From Paenibacillus sp. FSL K6-0276 (GTDB lineage Bacteria > Bacillota > Bacilli > Paenibacillales > Paenibacillaceae): DNA of 64,000 nucleotides. The notes beneath the pieces are model-generated. The model did not search any database, had not been told where the DNA came from, and saw only the letters and a list, made by a program, of their open reading frames with translations. Below, one piece after another: positions 40,680 through 48,490 of the stretch. Both the position numbers and the translations under genes were made by a program. The stretch is taken from contig NZ_CP150276.1 of assembly GCF_037977235.1 (NCBI RefSeq), forward strand, positions 1,178,001-1,242,000, given 5' to 3'. Each line of letters begins with the position of its first letter. Positions within the stretch are counted from its first letter, which is position 1.

Positions 40680-41408
40680 TTATTTAGCTAGAAGTCCAGC
40701 CAGCACGTCTGGATGATCGGTAATAATACCTGACACTCCAGCTTCAATCAAAACCTTCATCCGCTCCGGATCATTAACGGTCCAAGGATGGTAGGCGATG
40801 CCATGCTTAGCCGCTTCTTCGACGAATTCAGGAAGTACCGCTTGATGATGAGCATGCAGTGCGTTCGCGCCAAGCGTAGCTGCATAATCCCAAGGACGAT
40901 ACAGACCCTCCCCGTATAGAATTCCAGTCTTGATCTCAGGTGCGATCGTTTTACTGTAAGCTAGGGAATAATGGTTGAAGCTCGAAAAAATCACACGATC
41001 GCTCATCTTGAACTCCCTTACAGCCGCGATAACCTTTTCCTCCATACCCGGGTAAAAAAAAGTACCATTTTTAAACTCGATATTCAGTATCGTATCTCGT
41101 CCTTGCAGCAGACTTAATAAATCTTCTAGCAATGGGAGTTTTTCGCCTTTGAATTCGGGACCGAACCATGAGCCCGCATCCACTTCCAATAATTCCGCAA
41201 GAGTATGATCCTTCACATAGCCACTTCCGCTTGTCGTACGGTTTAGGGTTTCATCATGAATAAGAACAAGTCCGCCATCCTTGGTCATTTGTACATCAGT
41301 TTCAATTCCGGTTGCACCTAACTCAAGACCTTTGCGGAATGCTGCCATAGTATTCTCCGGACACACTGCCGATGCGCCGCGATGCGCAAAATTAATGATG
41401 TTTCTCAT
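40680..41408 (-). CDS. Glycerophosphodiester phosphodiesterase
   Basis: 242 residues, PI-PLC-like TIM barrel. FAHRGASAVCPENTMAAFRKG (His at about 8; core HRGASAVCPENT), then ETDVQMTKDGGLVLIHDETLNRTT with the metal-binding Glu/Asp and second His (core ETDVQMTKDG, HDETLNRTT). No signal peptide, so it cuts glycerophosphodiesters in the cytoplasm to glycerol 3-phosphate and an alcohol. GGAGGG precedes the ATG. It is the first gene of a two-gene unit with the MFS carrier. Confidence 0.92.
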   Translation of the reverse strand: MRNIINFAHRGASAVCPENTMAAFRKGLELGATGIETDVQMTKDGGLVLIHDETLNRTTSGSGYVKDHTLAELLEVDAGSWFGPEFKGEKLPLLEDLLSLLQGRDTILNIEFKNGTFFYPGMEEKVIAAVREFKMSDRVIFSSFNHYSLAYSKTIAPEIKTGILYGEGLYRPWDYAATLGANALHAHHQAVLPEFVEEAAKHGIAYHPWTVNDPERMKVLIEAGVSGIITDHPDVLAGLLAK

Positions 41409-41565: not shown

Positions 41566-42432
41566 TCAATGGTTCATAGCTCTATAAGGGATTCGTTCCA
41601 GTAATCCTGATCCGTAGATATCTTGCAGCTTCAGCTCTGGCATATGAATATAACCGATATAACAGTCGCACACCTTCATTCGGCAGCTTCTTATAGCGGA
41701 TAGACCTTCCAAGCCATCGCGGTAGAGATTGCCAATAACACCTCTGTCCTTATAGCAGCGTTTCACCAGTCCAGCGCCTTGTACATAAAAGACTTCATTT
41801 CCAGCATTACAGGTTTGACCAAGGCTTTCGTAATCCATAGCATTCACAGCAAAATGCGGATCAATCTTGCTCAGAATGGAAAGATCCTCGGCTATATAGT
41901 AATCTGGTTTATCTTTATAAGCATTGACCCATAGATATACACTCTCCGGTAATGCTGCGCGAAGCGAGGCTATAGCTGGAAAGGCGCTGCGTATCCCAAC
42001 GCTTCCTACACTGAAAGGAACAACGTTATCGTACAAAGTCATGCATTGCGTTAGAAACTTATCCTCGCTCACCTGTCCGGGGTGGTAAGTAGCCCAAAAG
42101 GCAGCTTTACTTCGATTCAGTTTGGAGATGAAATCAAGATTTGCTGAAAGGTTAGTCTGAATCGCCACCTTATCCACATGTTCCATATTGGAGAGCGAGA
42201 TCATAGCTTCTTTATACCAACGATGAATCAGACCTTCTCCATAAGGGTTGAAAAAGATAGACAGGCGATGGCCTGCCGCACCTTGCAAAGAGGCCCACTC
42301 TACAAAGCTCTCCAGCCCTTTCCGATCCTTCGCGAGAGTGGCTGCGCTGTCTCTTGTTTTGCCGAAAGGACAGTAGGGACAGTCGTAATTGCAGGAGGTG
42401 AGAGAGCCGCGGTAATAGAGAACCGCATTCAT
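41566..42432 (-). CDS. STM4011 family radical SAM protein
   Basis: 288 residues. The [4Fe-4S] motif CNYDCPYC sits at about 13-20, after LYYRGSLTS. The C-terminal part has Cys residues in CNAGNEVF, KRCYKDRG, RSCRMKVCDC, like a SPASM/twitch auxiliary-cluster region used by peptide-modifying enzymes. Last gene of the five-gene STM401x set. Its ATG at 42432 overlaps the STM4012 stop as ATGA, so the longer frame to 42483 is not needed. Reaction unknown. Confidence 0.88.
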   Translation of the reverse strand: MNAVLYYRGSLTSCNYDCPYCPFGKTRDSAATLAKDRKGLESFVEWASLQGAAGHRLSIFFNPYGEGLIHRWYKEAMISLSNMEHVDKVAIQTNLSANLDFISKLNRSKAAFWATYHPGQVSEDKFLTQCMTLYDNVVPFSVGSVGIRSAFPAIASLRAALPESVYLWVNAYKDKPDYYIAEDLSILSKIDPHFAVNAMDYESLGQTCNAGNEVFYVQGAGLVKRCYKDRGVIGNLYRDGLEGLSAIRSCRMKVCDCYIGYIHMPELKLQDIYGSGLLERIPYRAMNH

Positions 42433-43778
42433 GGCAATACGAACCTTTCCATTTGCTCCCGAATCTCCCCTGAAATAAACCAATCCCCAATGGAATCAGA
42501 ATAGCCCAGCCCTTCGGTAGTGAGGCTAAGTATGCCATCTTCTTCCTGTCCAAGGCCGGTATGAAGCAGGTTGGCCAGCTCAGGATAATCGGTCCAGAGC
42601 GAATTTCTGAATCGCAGGTAGTAATCTTCAATCCTCAGACCTTCACTATGTAGAATCGCCTTTAGAATAAAGCGGCGCTTCTGTTCTTCCAGACTTAGCG
42701 CAATTCCGTAATCTGCTGTATCGTAACGATCCGTTGCCACATAATTGGCAATAATACTCTCCGTTGCTTTACGACTCACTCCATAACGGGAAGCGTAATG
42801 TACGTTGCGAGTATAGGATCTAGCCCCGCATCCCAGCCCGACCATTCCTTCTTCCTGACAGCTGTAGTCAAGAATGCGTTTATCCGTTCCTGCGGTTTCT
42901 TTGGCGAAACGACGCATGGAATATTGACGATAACCTCTGGCTTTAAGCAGTTGCCCAGCGGCTTTATAGCAGTCTAGGCGAATATCCTCCTGACGCTGGA
43001 TATCACCTGGCTTCACGATGGTATGCTCACGGGTGTAGAGCGGATAAATAAAAATCTCCTCCGGATCATAGCTAAGCGCCTGATTTAGCGAATACAGCCA
43101 AGAGTCGACGGTCTGCCCCGGAAGACCATAGATCAGATCCAAATTTAGAATGGGAAAATCATATTTGCCCAGTAGCTCCAGTGCCCGATATACCTCATCC
43201 GGATTCTGAGGGCGATAGATGGCCGCTGATTCAGCAGCGACAAAACTTTGGATGCCCATACTGACCCGATCCACCGTATTTTCTTTTAGAATATTCAGCT
43301 TCTCTTCGTTGAGGGTCTCTGGTGAAGTTTCCACTGAGATGGAGGCCGAGCTCGTATCCAGTCCCATCGTATCAACGGCAATGCGGAACAAGCGACGAAG
43401 CTGATCTGCCGCCAACAGTGTAGGAGTTCCACCACCAATCGCGAAGCGGGCATAAGGTTTATGTCTAGTGAACTCGGCCCACTGCTTGGCTTGACGTTCT
43501 AGCGCGTCTACGTAAGTAGCGTGAACATTCGCGCGTTTATCAGGTAAGGTGAACAGGTTGCAAAATCCACAGCGAGCGCCGCAAAACGGGATATGCATAT
43601 ACAGAAAAAAGGATTCTGCAGGCTCATCCCGCCATAAGGATTCTAGTGGAATCGGAGGCTGTAGATCCCTGTAAGCCGTTTTGTGTGGATAGGAATATAG
43701 ATAAGATCTGTAAGGGTGAGCAGTAATGTTGTCTTTCCATTTGTGAAGCTCTTCTAAAGAGAAGGACGATAACGTCAT
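42429..43778 (-). CDS. STM4012 family radical SAM protein (HemN-like)
   Basis: 449 residues. YMHIPFCGARCGFCNLF carries CxxxCxxC (about 60-67). IGGGTPTLLAADQL, SVETSPETLN, RVSMGIQSF and DLIYGLPGQT follow the oxygen-independent coproporphyrinogen oxidase/HemW layout, with a HemN-type C-terminal domain. It is not expected to make heme, since its conserved neighbours are STM4011, 4013, 4014 and 4015. GGATGGAGA precedes the ATG. It is translationally coupled to STM4011. Function unknown. Confidence 0.9.
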   Translation of the reverse strand: MTLSSFSLEELHKWKDNITAHPYRSYLYSYPHKTAYRDLQPPIPLESLWRDEPAESFFLYMHIPFCGARCGFCNLFTLPDKRANVHATYVDALERQAKQWAEFTRHKPYARFAIGGGTPTLLAADQLRRLFRIAVDTMGLDTSSASISVETSPETLNEEKLNILKENTVDRVSMGIQSFVAAESAAIYRPQNPDEVYRALELLGKYDFPILNLDLIYGLPGQTVDSWLYSLNQALSYDPEEIFIYPLYTREHTIVKPGDIQRQEDIRLDCYKAAGQLLKARGYRQYSMRRFAKETAGTDKRILDYSCQEEGMVGLGCGARSYTRNVHYASRYGVSRKATESIIANYVATDRYDTADYGIALSLEEQKRRFILKAILHSEGLRIEDYYLRFRNSLWTDYPELANLLHTGLGQEEDGILSLTTEGLGYSDSIGDWFISGEIREQMERFVLP

Positions 43779-43820
43779 AACAGTTCTCCATCCTTTCCTT
43801 GAAATATAATAAAGTATAAA

Positions 43821-44603
43821 TTATAGAATAAATTCCCGATAAGGGACGTTCCATACGGTCTCGTGGGCAAGGCGATGCCCCTGATATCCATCTTCGCCAT
43901 AAGCGGTTCCATGATCCGAAAAAGCTAGGCAGAAGACAGGATTACCGCGTTCTCGGAACGCATCGAATAACCGGCCCAGTTCACCATCCACATAACGGAG
44001 TGCGGCGCGCTGGCTGTCTACGGAGTCTTTTTTAGCACCCGGCACAAAATAATGATTCGGCCCGTGGATGGCAGAGACATTAAGGAACATGAACAGTCTT
44101 TGCTCGCGCGGAGTATCCGTCAGCAGCTTCAAGGCATGATTCACCTGATGCTCTGTGGAACGCGGATTGGTGACGCCGAACGTCATCCGCCAGTAGCTTT
44201 GCTGGAAATAGCTTGGTAACACACGCGCGAGTGGATTTTTTTTGGTGAAAAATATAACGCCCCCAATACAAACCGTACGGTAACCCTCGGCAGCAAGCCC
44301 AGACACAATGTCCGGTGTATCGAACAGCCAGGTGTGGGGATGCGTCTTCATTCCAGTGTTCCGGGAATGGAACATGCGGATATGCTCCGTCTTATCCGTT
44401 GTTGCTGGAGTAGGCAAGAAGCCGCCGAAGAAGGCATGATGGGCAGCATAGGTGAAGCTGCCCGGGGTATGTCTTTTCTCCCAAGGTCCGGTTCCGCACA
44501 AGTTCGGGCAGTTGACTTCCTCCATAGTTGCGGCATCGTACCGAAGGGTATCGAGTGTGATCATTAGAATGTCATGGGTGCCGACGATGGTGTTCATATC
44601 CAT
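43821..44603 (-). CDS. STM4013/SEN3800 family hydrolase (alkaline-phosphatase/sulfatase fold)
   Basis: 260 residues, short for a sulfatase. Metal-binding features are ITLDTLRYD (about 14-22), a likely Thr nucleophile in GSFTYAAHHAFF (about 47-58), and FSDHGTAYGED (about 227-237) with a following GHRLAHE. No signal peptide. It may remove a phosphate or sulfate, or act as a phosphotransferase, on the cluster product. Its ATG overlaps the STM4014 stop by one base (TAATG) with AAGGAAGGA upstream. Confidence 0.88.
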   Translation of the reverse strand: MDMNTIVGTHDILMITLDTLRYDAATMEEVNCPNLCGTGPWEKRHTPGSFTYAAHHAFFGGFLPTPATTDKTEHIRMFHSRNTGMKTHPHTWLFDTPDIVSGLAAEGYRTVCIGGVIFFTKKNPLARVLPSYFQQSYWRMTFGVTNPRSTEHQVNHALKLLTDTPREQRLFMFLNVSAIHGPNHYFVPGAKKDSVDSQRAALRYVDGELGRLFDAFRERGNPVFCLAFSDHGTAYGEDGYQGHRLAHETVWNVPYREFIL

Positions 44604-45892
44604 TAAGATGATCCTTCCTTTATAAGCGGTGTTGAGGGATGCGTGATATAATCTCTAGCCGACAACACCTTCATTTCCCATTCGTAGGTGCTACATCCAC
44701 GGTATTTCACATCGTATAGTAGATCGCCAAATGGATTTACATCAGCGACAAAACATTGCTGCGACCCCCCGGATACCAGTACATCTATTCCTGCTACCCC
44801 GGAATGGGGGAAAGCCGCCAGTGCTTGCACCGCGGTATTTCGCACCTGCTCCTGAATGGGTTCAGACAGGCCGGCTTCCGAAAGAGACATCCGCTGGTTG
44901 CGTAAATGCAGATTTGTAATCGGAGTAGGACTGACACGTGCAATAGCGTGACAGGCTTCGCGGAGAACCACTAGCTGGCGAATATCAAAGGCTTTTCCTT
45001 TAAGTCCTGCTTTAGGGATCCATTGCTCGGCATAAGCACCATGCCGATAAATCCAGTTAAAAATTCCGGAGATGGTGGCGGTATCCGTATACCGTCGTAG
45101 TTTACCGGAATTATAGTAAATGGGTGGTCGAGTGATATAATTCTCGACCCCCACTGTAGTTAAGGCAATCTCGGCACCCGTCACGGGATGAATCTGATAG
45201 GCGATCACCCCAGAAGCCGCAGAGCCGAAGGCCAGCTTAATGAATACCCGGTGCATTCGCCGGGATAACATCATCTCACGGAGAGAGGCATAATCCGTAG
45301 GTTGCTGATCCTCGCCTACTGGGCGAGGGATTGGAAGGCCCGCTTCGCTCAGGATCTTTTGTGTCTGGCGTTTATCGGTCATGGCTACTATGTCAGCAGG
45401 GTCATTTAACCATAGCGAACCTGGACAAGCGGCTTTGGCTTCGCGCTGTAGTCTAGCCAGCATCCGGCAGTAACCGCGGAACCATTGGGATGGATGATGC
45501 AAGACACCTTGCATATCATTCAATTGACGGGCTACCTTCACGCGAAGTGGCCGCGGATCAGGTCTCTCGGCGTAGGGATGAAGCGAATCGTCAATATCAT
45601 CCGAATCTGGTGCGCCTAGAGCGATTAAGGCTCGTTCTACCTCGAAGCTGCTGCCAGGTGATTCTAGTCTCAGTAGCGGGGGAGCTGCACTGAGATCTAT
45701 TCCGTTATAAACGGAGGACTGACTGGATAACTGCTTCTTCTGCTCTTCCATAAGATCACCTAACGATCTACCTTGCAGAAACTCAGCGTACGATAAAATA
45801 ATGGCAGGGGGCATTCCGAGATCGGAACGCGCTTGCTGGATGCCGCTGGTCCGTTTATCACCGGGAATACCGATAACAATCATCGGTCTCAT
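44603..45892 (-). CDS. STM4014 family protein, ATP-grasp-like
   Basis: 429 residues from ATG 45892. MRPMIVIGIPGDKRTSG opens the protein. The centre has SEAGLPIPRPVGEDQQ and RVFIKLAFGSAASGVIAYQ (the ATP-grasp lysine/glycine loop), and the end has GVAGIDVLVSGGSQQCFVAD then VNPFGDLL, the Mg-binding Asp/Asn of RimK-type ligases. It probably forms an amide or ester at the cost of ATP. It starts 7 nt after the STM4015 stop; the longer frame to 45979 would overlap that gene. Confidence 0.85.
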   Translation of the reverse strand: MRPMIVIGIPGDKRTSGIQQARSDLGMPPAIILSYAEFLQGRSLGDLMEEQKKQLSSQSSVYNGIDLSAAPPLLRLESPGSSFEVERALIALGAPDSDDIDDSLHPYAERPDPRPLRVKVARQLNDMQGVLHHPSQWFRGYCRMLARLQREAKAACPGSLWLNDPADIVAMTDKRQTQKILSEAGLPIPRPVGEDQQPTDYASLREMMLSRRMHRVFIKLAFGSAASGVIAYQIHPVTGAEIALTTVGVENYITRPPIYYNSGKLRRYTDTATISGIFNWIYRHGAYAEQWIPKAGLKGKAFDIRQLVVLREACHAIARVSPTPITNLHLRNQRMSLSEAGLSEPIQEQVRNTAVQALAAFPHSGVAGIDVLVSGGSQQCFVADVNPFGDLLYDVKYRGCSTYEWEMKVLSARDYITHPSTPLIKEGSS

Positions 45893-45899
45893 GAGAGGC

Positions 45900-46745
45900 T
45901 CACTCTGTGATGGAAGGATAACGCCAGTCTTCCTCATCATCGCTTTCCTGCTTGTCGCTAACATCAACAGGCAATCCACTCTGCTTCCAACGGTTAATCA
46001 TCTCGTCAGACATATAATGATGGCTTAGGTTTAATGCTTTTAATCCTTTGATTCTGTCGCTGGCTAGAAGCAATTCTGCACCCTCGTCGCTTAGGATACC
46101 AAGCGACAGATCGAGCGTATCCAGTTGATCCAGAATAGGAGCATTTGCTAATGCACCTGCGATCTCATCTTGGATTTGGCTATTTTTTAAACCAAGATAA
46201 GTAAGTTTAGGGAACTTTCCTACTTCAATAAGAGGGAGAAGATCTGCGAGGCCTCCGTCAAAACCGTAATCATCTACACCTAGATAGAGCTCCAGCTTGC
46301 GCAAATTCGGCAATTGGCTGGCTGCAATATTTTCAAGTACGGTTTTACTTAAGCCTCCACTAATAATAATCAGTTCTTCCAGCTTATCGTGCTTTAGTTC
46401 TGCGAGGCTCAGTTCATTCCCGCCTTGAATAGTGAGTGATTGTAGCTCTGGAAAAGCGGGGAGCAGCGGTGATAGATCGCTTTGAGTAATCCAAGAAATC
46501 TCGCATTCCTCAGAGTCCATCTCGCCTATAAAAAGCTTGCGCAAAGCAGGGAAGCTAGCGCTATGCGTAACCAGTGCCTCTACAACCTCTTCTGAACTAT
46601 TTTCGTAGGCTTGCCCCCAATCACCAATAATTAGGCTGGTCAGCGAAGAACTTTCAGGGCTATTGCTAAGCTTCTCAATTTCCGTGCCAATTCTTTGGCC
46701 TTCTTCGAATTCGTCGTATCCAATGCTAAGCTTTACTTCCGTCAT
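45900..46745 (-). CDS. STM4015 family leucine-rich-repeat protein
   Basis: 281 residues. About eight leucine-rich repeats (for example FPELQSLTIQGGNELSLAEL, LPNLRKLELYLGVDDYG, FPKLTYLGLKNSQIQDEI, LDTLDLSLGILSDEGAELL, GLKALNLSHHYMSDEMI) are followed by an acidic, probably unfolded tail, SDKQESDDEEDWRYPSITE. No catalytic motif. First gene of the STM4015-4011 operon. ATG 46745 is chosen because GGAGGGA is 6 nt upstream and touches the earlier ATG. It may be the scaffold or the substrate of the modifying enzymes; inference only. Confidence 0.86.
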   Translation of the reverse strand: MTEVKLSIGYDEFEEGQRIGTEIEKLSNSPESSSLTSLIIGDWGQAYENSSEEVVEALVTHSASFPALRKLFIGEMDSEECEISWITQSDLSPLLPAFPELQSLTIQGGNELSLAELKHDKLEELIIISGGLSKTVLENIAASQLPNLRKLELYLGVDDYGFDGGLADLLPLIEVGKFPKLTYLGLKNSQIQDEIAGALANAPILDQLDTLDLSLGILSDEGAELLLASDRIKGLKALNLSHHYMSDEMINRWKQSGLPVDVSDKQESDDEEDWRYPSITE

Positions 46746-46920
46746 GGGCATTCCCTCCAGGAAAAATTTAACTTCGAAAATACCCTATCATCTGTAGCGG
46801 AGGGAGTCAAATAACAGTTTAAAAAAATTATAGTCAAATTCGTCATGTTATTGTGCTAATCATTTATGGTAGGTTTATGCTAGGGGGAATTACATTATTT
46901 TGAAATATAAAAAAGTATAC

Positions 46921-47014: not shown

Positions 47015-48490
47015 GTGAAGATCAAACTTCAGGAATGGATTATAGAAGCGGATATCGCAAAGCTGCAAGCGGCTATGGAAGCAGGAGTAGTCAGCTCAGA
47101 AGATGTGGTAGCAGCATATTTGGAACGGATTCATAAGTACGATATAGACATAAATTCAATCTTAGAAATCAATCCAGAGGCTATAGAAATCGCGAGAGCA
47201 CTGGATAATGAACGTAAGGAAAAAGGAAGTCGGGGAAGTCTACACGGCATTCCTATATTGTTGAAGGATAATATAGATACCGCGGATAAGATGCATACGA
47301 GTGCTGGTTCAGTAGCTTTAGCAGGATCATTTGCGGCAAAAGATTCATTCGTAGCTGCGAAGCTTCGGTCGGCAGGAGCTGTTTTGCTTGGAAAGGCGAA
47401 TATGTCGGAGTGGTCTAACTTTATGTCTAGTTCAATGCCGGCGGGGTATAGCTCACGAGGTGGTCTAGTACTTAATCCATATGGACCAGGGAATGTATTT
47501 GTCAGTGGTTCAAGTTCTGGGCCAGCGGCAGCTATTGCGGCGAATTTGGCAGCGGCATCGATCGGAACCGAAACAGCGGGATCAATCGTCGGCCCAGCCA
47601 GTCAGCATGCTCTCGTTGGGATCAAACCAACGGTTGGATTGGTCAGTCGTACTGGAGTGATTCCTATTTCGGTTAGCCAAGACACCCCTGGACCTATAGC
47701 TAAAACGGTTACGGATGCGGCGATTATTTTGGGGGCATTAACGGGAGTGGATGACAAGGATGAAGCAACATTTTCGAGCGAGAAGCATGCTTTTACGGAC
47801 TATACTCCATTTTTAGATAAAAACTTTATACGACAAGCAAGAATAGGTATCCCACGGCATTATTATAACCATTTAGATGCAGAGCGACTTTCAATTATGG
47901 AAGCAGCTATCCAGACTTTGAAGAACGAAGGGGCTACGATTATAGATCCAGTTACGCTTTACGTTGAAGAACAAAACTGGAATAATAATGTGATCTGTTA
48001 TGAATTTAAAAAGGGGCTCAATGCGTATTTATCCCAAGTAGATGATTCCGTTCCGATTCACTCTTTGCAAGAACTGATAGCGTATAATGAAAGCCATGCT
48101 GAAATCGCATTACAATATGGGCAAGACACATTAACTAGGTCAGAAGAAGTAACATTGACTGAAGAAGACTATCAGCAAAAGAAACAAGAATACAGGGCAT
48201 TAGCGCTCGAGCAAGGAATAGATTACGTGTTGGAACAATATAGCTTGGATGCATTATTACTGCCTGGTGATGTAGATGGTATGTATATTGCGGCACGCTT
48301 GGGGTATCCGTTAATTACCGTTCCGGCAGGGTATGTAGCACAGGGCATTATTGATGCTGACGGTGATCCTACCAGGGGTCCCTTTGGTGTTGTTTTTTCC
48401 GGCAAAGCTTATAGTGAGCCTACGCTCATATCTTTAGCATACGGGTTTGAACAAGCCACACACCATCGTATTCCACTGCAACTGGAATAG
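47015..48490 (+). CDS. Amidase signature family protein
   Basis: 491 residues. The catalytic Lys is in PILLKDNIDT (about 74-83). The Gly/Ser-rich signature is VSGSSSGPAAAIAANLAAA (about 168-186) with the cis-Ser, and the nucleophile Ser is in ETAGSIVGPA (about 190-199). It hydrolyses amides in the cytoplasm; substrate not predictable (peptide amidase or GatA-like paralogue without GatCB). GTG 47015 has AAGGAG upstream. It follows a repeat copy and is divergent from the STM4015 operon. Confidence 0.9.
   Translation: MKIKLQEWIIEADIAKLQAAMEAGVVSSEDVVAAYLERIHKYDIDINSILEINPEAIEIARALDNERKEKGSRGSLHGIPILLKDNIDTADKMHTSAGSVALAGSFAAKDSFVAAKLRSAGAVLLGKANMSEWSNFMSSSMPAGYSSRGGLVLNPYGPGNVFVSGSSSGPAAAIAANLAAASIGTETAGSIVGPASQHALVGIKPTVGLVSRTGVIPISVSQDTPGPIAKTVTDAAIILGALTGVDDKDEATFSSEKHAFTDYTPFLDKNFIRQARIGIPRHYYNHLDAERLSIMEAAIQTLKNEGATIIDPVTLYVEEQNWNNNVICYEFKKGLNAYLSQVDDSVPIHSLQELIAYNESHAEIALQYGQDTLTRSEEVTLTEEDYQQKKQEYRALALEQGIDYVLEQYSLDALLLPGDVDGMYIAARLGYPLITVPAGYVAQGIIDADGDPTRGPFGVVFSGKAYSEPTLISLAYGFEQATHHRIPLQLE

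Follow-up and report, generated by a model that had tools for sequence, protein, structure and literature searches.

What do four enzymes work on when no classic precursor peptide is encoded beside them? This question is raised by the STM4011-STM4015 gene cluster of Paenibacillus sp. FSL K6-0276, which lies on the 64,000-nucleotide stretch of contig NZ_CP150276.1 analyzed here (positions 1,178,001 to 1,242,000, hereafter the window, whose own numbering we use). Its five families, whose only names are Salmonella locus tags, are found together across many bacterial phyla and also in Salmonella. A sequence-only reading had suggested a peptide- or cofactor-modifying pathway without a classic precursor peptide. 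A modification pathway is likely and the five genes do form a unit, but that reading missed the main clue: STM4015, a leucine-rich-repeat (LRR) protein, itself carries a conserved seven-residue tail with a near-invariant C-terminal glutamate (Glu), which makes it the likely substrate. Because a ligase of the LysX/ArgX/RimK neighbourhood, STM4014, is encoded beside this protein, we propose, at a probability of about one half, that STM4015 is the protein substrate of the four enzymes and that its C-terminal Glu tail is modified.

45900-46745, minus strand: STM4015, LRR protein of 281 amino acids, proposed substrate (NF038076; relative PDB 2ra8, E 3.8e-100)
45903-45926, minus strand: tail W-RYPSITE of STM4015, directly before the stop codon, proposed modification site; terminal Glu at 45903-45905
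44603-45892, minus strand: STM4014, ATP-grasp ligase of the LysX/ArgX/RimK neighbourhood (NF038074, profile, model), proposed activator of the C-terminal Glu of STM4015
43821-44603, minus strand: STM4013, alkaline-phosphatase-superfamily enzyme (NF038075, alignment, model), with D18, T51, D230 and H231 invariant
42429-43778, minus strand: STM4012, HemN-like radical SAM enzyme with a HemN_C domain (NF006067, Pfam)
41566-42432, minus strand: STM4011, radical SAM enzyme with SPASM-like C-terminal cysteines (NF038073, alignment)

Five linked genes form a functional unit

All five open reading frames (ORFs) lie on the minus strand between 41566 and 46745, as seen in the ORF list and the sequence of the window. 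The cluster first recognized there is real, since all five proteins score above the curated NCBIfam cut-offs: 386 bits against 200 for STM4011 (NF038073), 580 against 380 for STM4012 (NF006067), 400 against 250 for STM4013 (NF038075), 391 against 175 for STM4014 (NF038074) and 357 against 275 for STM4015 (NF038076). The window proteins are thus members of these families, whose descriptions consist of a name without a function. The tight spacing described before is also correct, with a 7-nucleotide gap between STM4015 and STM4014, a TAATG overlap at 44603, a 42-nucleotide gap and an ATGA overlap at 42429-42432. STM4015 starts at 46745, 7 bases after GGAGGG, which looks better than the in-frame ATG at 46751. 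In Pfam, STM4012 matches Radical_SAM and HemN_C, STM4013 matches Sulfatase, and STM4015 has one LRR model above the cut-off; the radical SAM match to STM4011 and the ATP-grasp match to STM4014 are sub-threshold. The solved relative of STM4015, PDB 2ra8, comes from Bacteroides fragilis. Its chain of 362 residues extends eight past the end of the match at 354, which suggests that it carries a C-terminal tag and so lacks a free Glu.

Co-occurrence supports the earlier suggestion that the five genes form a functional unit. We scanned one genome per species, 84,980 species in all, with an STM4015 alignment whose pattern was placed in the LRR body, outside the tail, and kept the best 80 of 268 relatives. 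All five genes are present in 75 of these 80 loci, and 73 have the order 15-14-13-12-11. The incomplete loci are L051, L062, L076, L090 and L095 (L numbers denote loci, G numbers genomes). At 3.8 and 6.4 kb, the contigs of L062 and L095 are short, and two other loci belong to rearranged genomes: G473 (L090) carries STM4015-14 at one site and STM4015-13-12-11 at another, while G472 (L076) has STM4013 at a separate site and STM4014 and STM4012 in one open frame (L076:10665-13391). At L051, from a metagenome-assembled genome, STM4015 stands alone; STM4013 was not found in that genome, where the remaining enzymes were not searched for.

The same linkage holds within a family. We compared by eye the gene lists of 121 genomes from Streptomycetaceae, to which the L059 genome belongs: 59 have sequence of all five genes, 3 have STM4015 alone (G360, G376, G414), and in 59 none of STM4015, STM4014, STM4012 and STM4011 exceeds its cut-off. 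Counted by gene, STM4015 is found in 62 genomes and STM4012 in 59, with STM4014 over cut-off in 59 and STM4011 in 58; operon-type STM4013 occurs in the same 59 genomes as STM4014, STM4012 and STM4011. The set is damaged in two of the 59: in G365 (C1:817414-820552), STM4011 is split into four pieces and STM4013 into two, and half of STM4012 is present; in G456 (C1:2874490-2875315), STM4011 is split into two. These may be broken genes or sequencing errors. Elsewhere, STM4015 exceeds its cut-off in 5 of 199 genomes of the window's phylum, its own counted, and in 3 of 149 genomes from the phylum to which L059 belongs. The system is thus widely but patchily distributed.

STM4015 ends in a conserved tail

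STM4015 ends in a variable acidic linker followed by R-[YF]-x-[AS]-[VIL]-[TSGA]-E. In an alignment of ten STM4015 proteins from distant bacteria, the last residue is an invariant Glu behind a linker of variable length. We extended this to a census of 113 proteins, which leaves out the short or duplicate copies at L001-L007 and L012 as well as STM4015 matches of at most 100 bits. Glu stands at position -1 in 108 of the 113, threonine (Thr) or serine (Ser) at -2 in 80, valine, leucine or isoleucine (Ile) at -3 in 110, alanine or Ser at -4 in 90, tyrosine (Tyr) or phenylalanine (Phe) at -6 in 107 and arginine at -7 in 99. Five proteins lack this Glu: the solitary L051 protein, which ends RYPAVTV, and the first paralog in each of four Herpetosiphon genomes.

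Information content gives the same picture. For the 112 proteins that exceed 150 bits, and with equal weight given to each phylum, STM4015 positions -7 to -1 carry 2.1-4.2 bits each, except -2 with 1.8, while the last 14 positions of STM4011 and STM4014 carry at most 1.0 bit each. The strict tail pattern is present in 91 of the 112, in nine of eleven phyla, and the Glu end in all eleven. The phyla, assigned by hand, are Bacillota, Actinomycetota, Pseudomonadota, Deinococcota, Bacteroidota, Cyanobacteriota, Chloroflexota, Planctomycetota, Myxococcota, Verrucomicrobiota and that of Abditibacterium, and one further protein is unclassified. The single proteins from Bacteroidota and Abditibacterium end in Glu and miss the strict pattern. 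Salmonella STM4015, outside the census, ends YMNAMYTE.

A tail that conserves Tyr or Phe together with Glu, beside the SPASM-like radical SAM enzyme STM4011, recalls peptide-derived cofactors: pyrroloquinoline quinone is made from Glu and Tyr of PqqA, and mycofactocin is likewise derived from a peptide. The tail might then be converted in place or excised, with Tyr -6 and Glu -1 reacting and the ATP-grasp enzyme in a secondary role. However, position -6 is Phe in 16 of the 113 proteins and Ser or Ile in 6, which makes Tyr-specific ring chemistry unlikely, and no recurrent peptidase was recognized near the operon (a PqqD-like protein was not searched for). We consider this explanation distinctly unlikely.

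The tail is specific to STM4015

Across 19,062 terminated ORFs of at least 50 residues, drawn from loci that partly overlap so that counts are not independent, the pattern R[YF]x[ASEMY][VIL][TSGA]E closes 158 STM4015 ORFs and a single other, which is itself an STM4015 remnant on a weak 33-bit STM4015 match. We also searched whole genomes at the codon level. In the 6.1-Mb genome of the window, R[YF]Pxx[TSAG]E-stop, in a form that omits, for example, TCN for Ser at -2, has two matches, of which STM4015 is the sole one with a real stop; the second ends in TGG and was rejected. Six other genomes gave 30 matches, compared with 2 for a reversed control; by position, 26 of the 30 are STM4015 ends (those in G201 placed through L087), of which two lie on short or remnant copies. 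The remaining four were discarded as a TGG end, a 242-residue frame of non-coding appearance and frames of 11 and 53 residues. No convincing tail-bearing protein besides STM4015 was thus found in these seven genomes, with patterns that omit some codons and variants and are not exhaustive.

STM4014 resembles ligases that act on protein C-termini

STM4014 had been described as an ATP-grasp-like ligase, an assignment that profile and model comparisons sharpen to the neighbourhood of LysX, ArgX and RimK. Its sequence profile matches D-Ala-D-Ala ligase first (1.5e-6), then LysX (3.1e-6) and RimK (1.8e-5) in the PDB, and the profile alignment with LysX (1uc8) has the DxR and ITN motifs in common. 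A predicted model built from 46 sequences (mean predicted local distance difference test score, pLDDT, 92.7) finds ArgX in complex with LysW as its top Foldseek match. In a second structural alignment, the nine best rows are ArgX, RimK and LysX (Z 21.0-22.9, root-mean-square deviation 2.9-3.2, 263-280 aligned residues). Against so narrow a placement, glutathione synthetase (Z 20.9) is level with the lowest LysX/RimK row at 21.0, other ATP-grasp enzymes reach about 19-20.8, and D-Ala-D-Ala ligase leads the profile matches; given this small margin, the LysX/ArgX/RimK subfamily is a preference and not a proof. STM4014 also falls far below the NCBIfam cut-offs for rimK_fam (25.7 against 143.4 bits) and LysX_arch (22.9 against 275.6), so we do not file it in either family. 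By structural comparison, we prefer the view that STM4014 works in a manner resembling LysX, ArgX and RimK while standing outside their families, and the partner protein with a C-terminal Glu that goes with ligases of this type is found in STM4015.

The graspetide ligase PsnB is also among the Foldseek matches of STM4014 (E 1.6e-10). It is absent from the 50 rows shown by the second structural alignment, which excludes nothing. Like a graspetide ligase, STM4014 could link the terminal Glu to a second side chain of the tail as a lactone or lactam. But the tail offers no invariant nucleophile, with Thr or Ser at -2 in only 80 proteins and Phe at -6 in 16, and lysine is not among the common residues of its last eight positions. 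Graspetides arise from short precursors with a core of Thr/Ser and Glu/Asp, unlike an LRR partner with such a tail. We regard ring closure of this kind as highly improbable.

STM4013 is a candidate phospho-enzyme

The view of STM4013 as a sulfatase-fold hydrolase was right about the fold and not about the nucleophile. Sulfatases carry cysteine (Cys) or Ser in the nucleophile and formylglycine motif [CS]-x-[PA]-x-R. STM4013 lacks this motif and has an invariant Thr at the nucleophile position, and we rejected it as a sulfatase. D18, T51, D230 and H231 are kept in all 24 aligned sequences, and both T51 and H55 of the motif FTYAAH are invariant in them. A predicted model (pLDDT 94.9) is closest to phosphoethanolamine transferases in Foldseek and to choline sulfatase and its relatives in the second structural alignment. 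STM4013 shares with both groups the alkaline phosphatase superfamily fold; it differs from them in its length of about 260 residues and in the missing Cys/Ser motif of sulfatases. The Asp, Thr and Asp-His positions presumably correspond to the metal ligands and nucleophile of EptA/MCR-type enzymes, and we take the Thr of FTYAAH to fit a phospho-enzyme and not a formylglycine sulfatase. STM4013 is therefore probably, on model and alignment, a phosphotransferase or phosphohydrolase.

Although the five families do not occur independently of each other, STM4013 is also found outside the set. A second clade, lower-scoring and still over the cut-off (264-363 bits), is present in 20 of the 121 Streptomycetaceae genomes, 9 of which have no operon. 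In four of the six loci compared (L020, L152, L154, L160; not L151 or L153) it belongs to a different cluster.

That second cluster, also present at L018:3860-7309 and likewise from Streptomycetaceae, is built around the STM4013 paralog and comprises a MoaA-like radical SAM enzyme, a dTMP-kinase-like P-loop kinase, a 159-residue protein without a Pfam match, the paralog itself and a NUDIX hydrolase. At L151 and L153 the STM4013 paralog is the only match to the cluster. Ten Agrobacterium plasmid records (matches H16-H25) also list a sulfatase-like protein with about 25% identity to STM4013.

Two radical SAM enzymes

STM4011 carries a CX3CX2C motif together with C208, C226, C250, C255 and C257, all invariant in 28 sequences. 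It weakly matches the SPASM enzyme SkfB (E 0.016), and Pfam SPASM appears below threshold in one of five relatives scanned. The CxxxCxxC motif of STM4012 is invariant in 22 sequences. STM4012 was rejected as HemN or HemW, being below the NCBIfam equivalog cut-offs for both (132 against 325 and 158 against 205 bits).

Several STM4015 paralogs accompany one enzyme set

Among the 59 Streptomycetaceae genomes with the set, STM4011, STM4012 and STM4014 are single, except for a second STM4012 in G444, and STM4015 copies over the cut-off number up to seven per genome (G355, G381). The bodies of the paralogs are 41-72% identical, and most tails agree, the tailless Herpetosiphon copies excepted. The tail is also kept on copies far from the operon, either on a different contig or at a distance of 100 kb to megabases (L148, L150, L155, L156, L157). 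Diverged paralogs with a shared tail fit a shared modification on proteins with different binding surfaces. Tentatively, and with odds clearly short of even, the STM4015 proteins may be interchangeable LRR targeting modules that show the same enzyme-built prosthetic group, carried on the C-terminal Glu, to different partners. This would be a new class of protein modification, to which a ligase, a phospho-ester enzyme and two radical SAM enzymes contribute.

Accessory genes suggest phosphate chemistry

In five long frames picked by hand and scanned, a HAD-IIB phosphatase domain is fused to STM4011. A separate HAD-IIB gene overlaps STM4011 in Salmonella and lies about 1.4 kb downstream in Deinococcus, and six loci (four Undibacterium, two Myxococcales; one scanned) carry a HAD-IA gene between STM4014 and STM4013. 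The scan includes 31 Paenibacillaceae loci (L021-L050, L054), and in 19 of them an adenosine phosphosulfate (APS) kinase gene (CysC-like) directly follows STM4011; four of these kinases were checked with family models, and the number of independent cases is smaller than 19 because nine look like close relatives by sequence. At L023 the APS kinase gene lies about 1 kb from STM4011.

STM4011 fused to HAD-IIB: L011:3348-4793, L016:10195-11772, L058:11071-12570, L088:5464-7113, L091:9563-11065
APS kinase directly downstream of STM4011: L021, L022, L028, L029, L031-L033, L036, L038-L040, L042, L043, L045-L049, L054

The window and L008 have a glycerophosphodiester phosphodiesterase gene in the place of the APS kinase gene (40680-41408, minus strand, in the window); on the other side of the window's operon lies an amidase gene (47015-48490, plus strand). 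Taken together, the accessory genes suggest phosphate chemistry.

We then clustered the neighbours within 3 kb of the operon at 93 loci, a coarse comparison that would miss weakly conserved families. The clusters found in at least two phyla are ABC transporter ATPases of mixed type (9 loci, three phyla), HAD-IA (6 loci), DUF6745 (3 loci) and a beta-lactamase-fold protein (2 loci). No peptidase was recognized among them, with one three-locus cluster left unscanned. The recurrence of ABC ATPases makes export of a product possible.

These findings bear on a rival in which a small molecule is built on the C-terminal Glu of STM4015 and released, as with LysW or pearlins, while the LRR protein is recycled. 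The ligase neighbourhood and the C-terminal Glu are as in amino-group carrier protein (AmCP) systems, the HAD phosphatases, the APS kinase and the fold of STM4013 suggest small-molecule phosphate chemistry, and the transporter ATPases would suit it as well. Yet the clustering recognized no recurrent peptidase, within the limits just given, and several diverged paralogs per genome are hard to square with a mere carrier. We judge a released product unlikely.

Two neighbours stand near the operon mostly in Actinomycetota: a DUF6745 protein in 24 loci and a small protein with a MYRQGD-like start in 22 (for example L013:1168-2632, L014:2504-3829 and L015:9009-10306). The match at L069 is doubtful, as it overlaps STM4015 on the other strand.

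Relation to known systems

LysW is a small carrier that works with a kinase, a reductase, an aminotransferase and a peptidase. The LysX/ArgX-LysW pair, in the sources as far as consulted, resembles STM4014 and STM4015 in its ATP-grasp fold and in a C-terminal Glu on the partner that accepts an amine; here the partner is an LRR protein, accompanied by two radical SAM enzymes and an alkaline-phosphatase-fold enzyme. Amino-group carriers are small and have a C-terminal Glu extension, whereas STM4015 is an LRR protein of 281 residues in the window and of 306-425, stop sign counted, in seven translated plasmid copies. RimK adds glutamates, and we know of no RimK that works with radical SAM enzymes. 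RimK and ribosomal protein S6 (RpsF), in the sections of the sources consulted, offer a similar ligase fold that modifies the C-terminus of a folded protein, the difference being that the substrate is ribosomal. According to the sections of PMC9303977 on these systems, AmCP carriers are joined through the gamma-carboxylate of the C-terminal Glu. In pearlins, by the same sections, a group is put on the C-terminus of a gene-encoded chain, and radical SAM and other enzymes then act; pearlins differ from the present set in an aminoacyl-tRNA-dependent ligase in place of an ATP-grasp enzyme, a short carrier peptide and a protease that releases the product (PMC9303977). We found no gene for the pearlin-type ligase (PEARL) among the five genes and the two scanned neighbours in the window, all of which belong to other families; genes farther out were not scanned.

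A literature search, mostly of papers open without subscription, turned up no published function for STM4011-STM4015, the Salmonella set included, so the earlier view of an unassigned system stands and an earlier mention is possible. In the portions consulted, STM4013 or STM4015 appears merely in tables (PMC3844500, PMC2784778) and STM4010 in a listing (PMC4632510), and a term search of the accessible text of PMC4431377 and PMC8939145 gave no occurrence of LRR or sulfatase. The kinds of enzyme are known already; no account of the tail or of this combination came to light in the literature searched.

Weighing a model of C-terminal modification

In the model that we favor, the LRR body of STM4015 would be the recognition or targeting part and its R-[YF]-x-[AS]-[VIL]-[TSGA]-E end the site worked on. 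By analogy with LysX and ArgX acting on LysW and RimK acting on ribosomal protein S6, STM4014 would use ATP to phosphorylate a carboxylate of the terminal Glu and join to it an amine-bearing group. STM4013, with the accessory phosphatases or kinase, would process the building block at a phosphate or a related ester, and STM4011 and STM4012 could use radical chemistry to alter the tail or the group attached to it. This group would probably remain bound to the LRR protein, as a modification or a prosthetic group, since one enzyme set accompanies up to seven diverged paralogs and no recurrent peptidase was recognized next to the operon. The data show the linkage of the genes, the conserved and specific tail and the neighbourhoods of the folds; which carboxylate and which amine take part, the order of the steps and the retention of the product are what we infer.

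Several observations weigh against this model, among them the narrow Z margin of the ligase assignment. Conserved ends are found elsewhere in the set, with up to 3.9 bits at a single position of STM4012 and up to 2.0 in STM4013, and the STM4015 linker before the tail itself carries 1.2-2.1 bits. The HAD and APS-kinase genes are lineage-specific, and the window has neither adjoining STM4011. The first paralogs of Herpetosiphon (L082, L085, L087, L093) stand in intact operons without a tail, ending YLA or YLQD beside three tailed paralogs, and divergent single copies in the enzyme-bearing genomes G371 and G383 (L145, L147) are also tailless. It is possible, too, that a diffusible product is released by an unlinked peptidase.

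Whether the tail decays without the enzymes gives a mixed picture. L051 lost its Glu in a genome without a detected STM4013, which counts for STM4015 as substrate, and the three enzyme-free Streptomycetaceae genomes keep a Glu end (PRHVAVEE, WRYAAVTE, QRYTAVDE), which counts against it. The latter are in line with a docking tag, where the enzymes would produce a free metabolite while STM4015, as a regulator, sensor or immunity protein, would bind one of these enzymes through its C-terminus; LRR proteins often are binding proteins. A docking tag need not be exactly C-terminal, however, yet a free terminal Glu is found in 108 of 113 proteins, and the folds nearest STM4014 modify such protein ends. 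A docking role is unlikely in our view, and modification of the tail remains the reading that we prefer.

By naming a likely substrate and residue, the analysis reduces an open question to one co-expression and mass measurement. If the model is true, full-size LRR proteins would be substrates of a further kind of C-terminal modification, one in which radical SAM enzymes take part.

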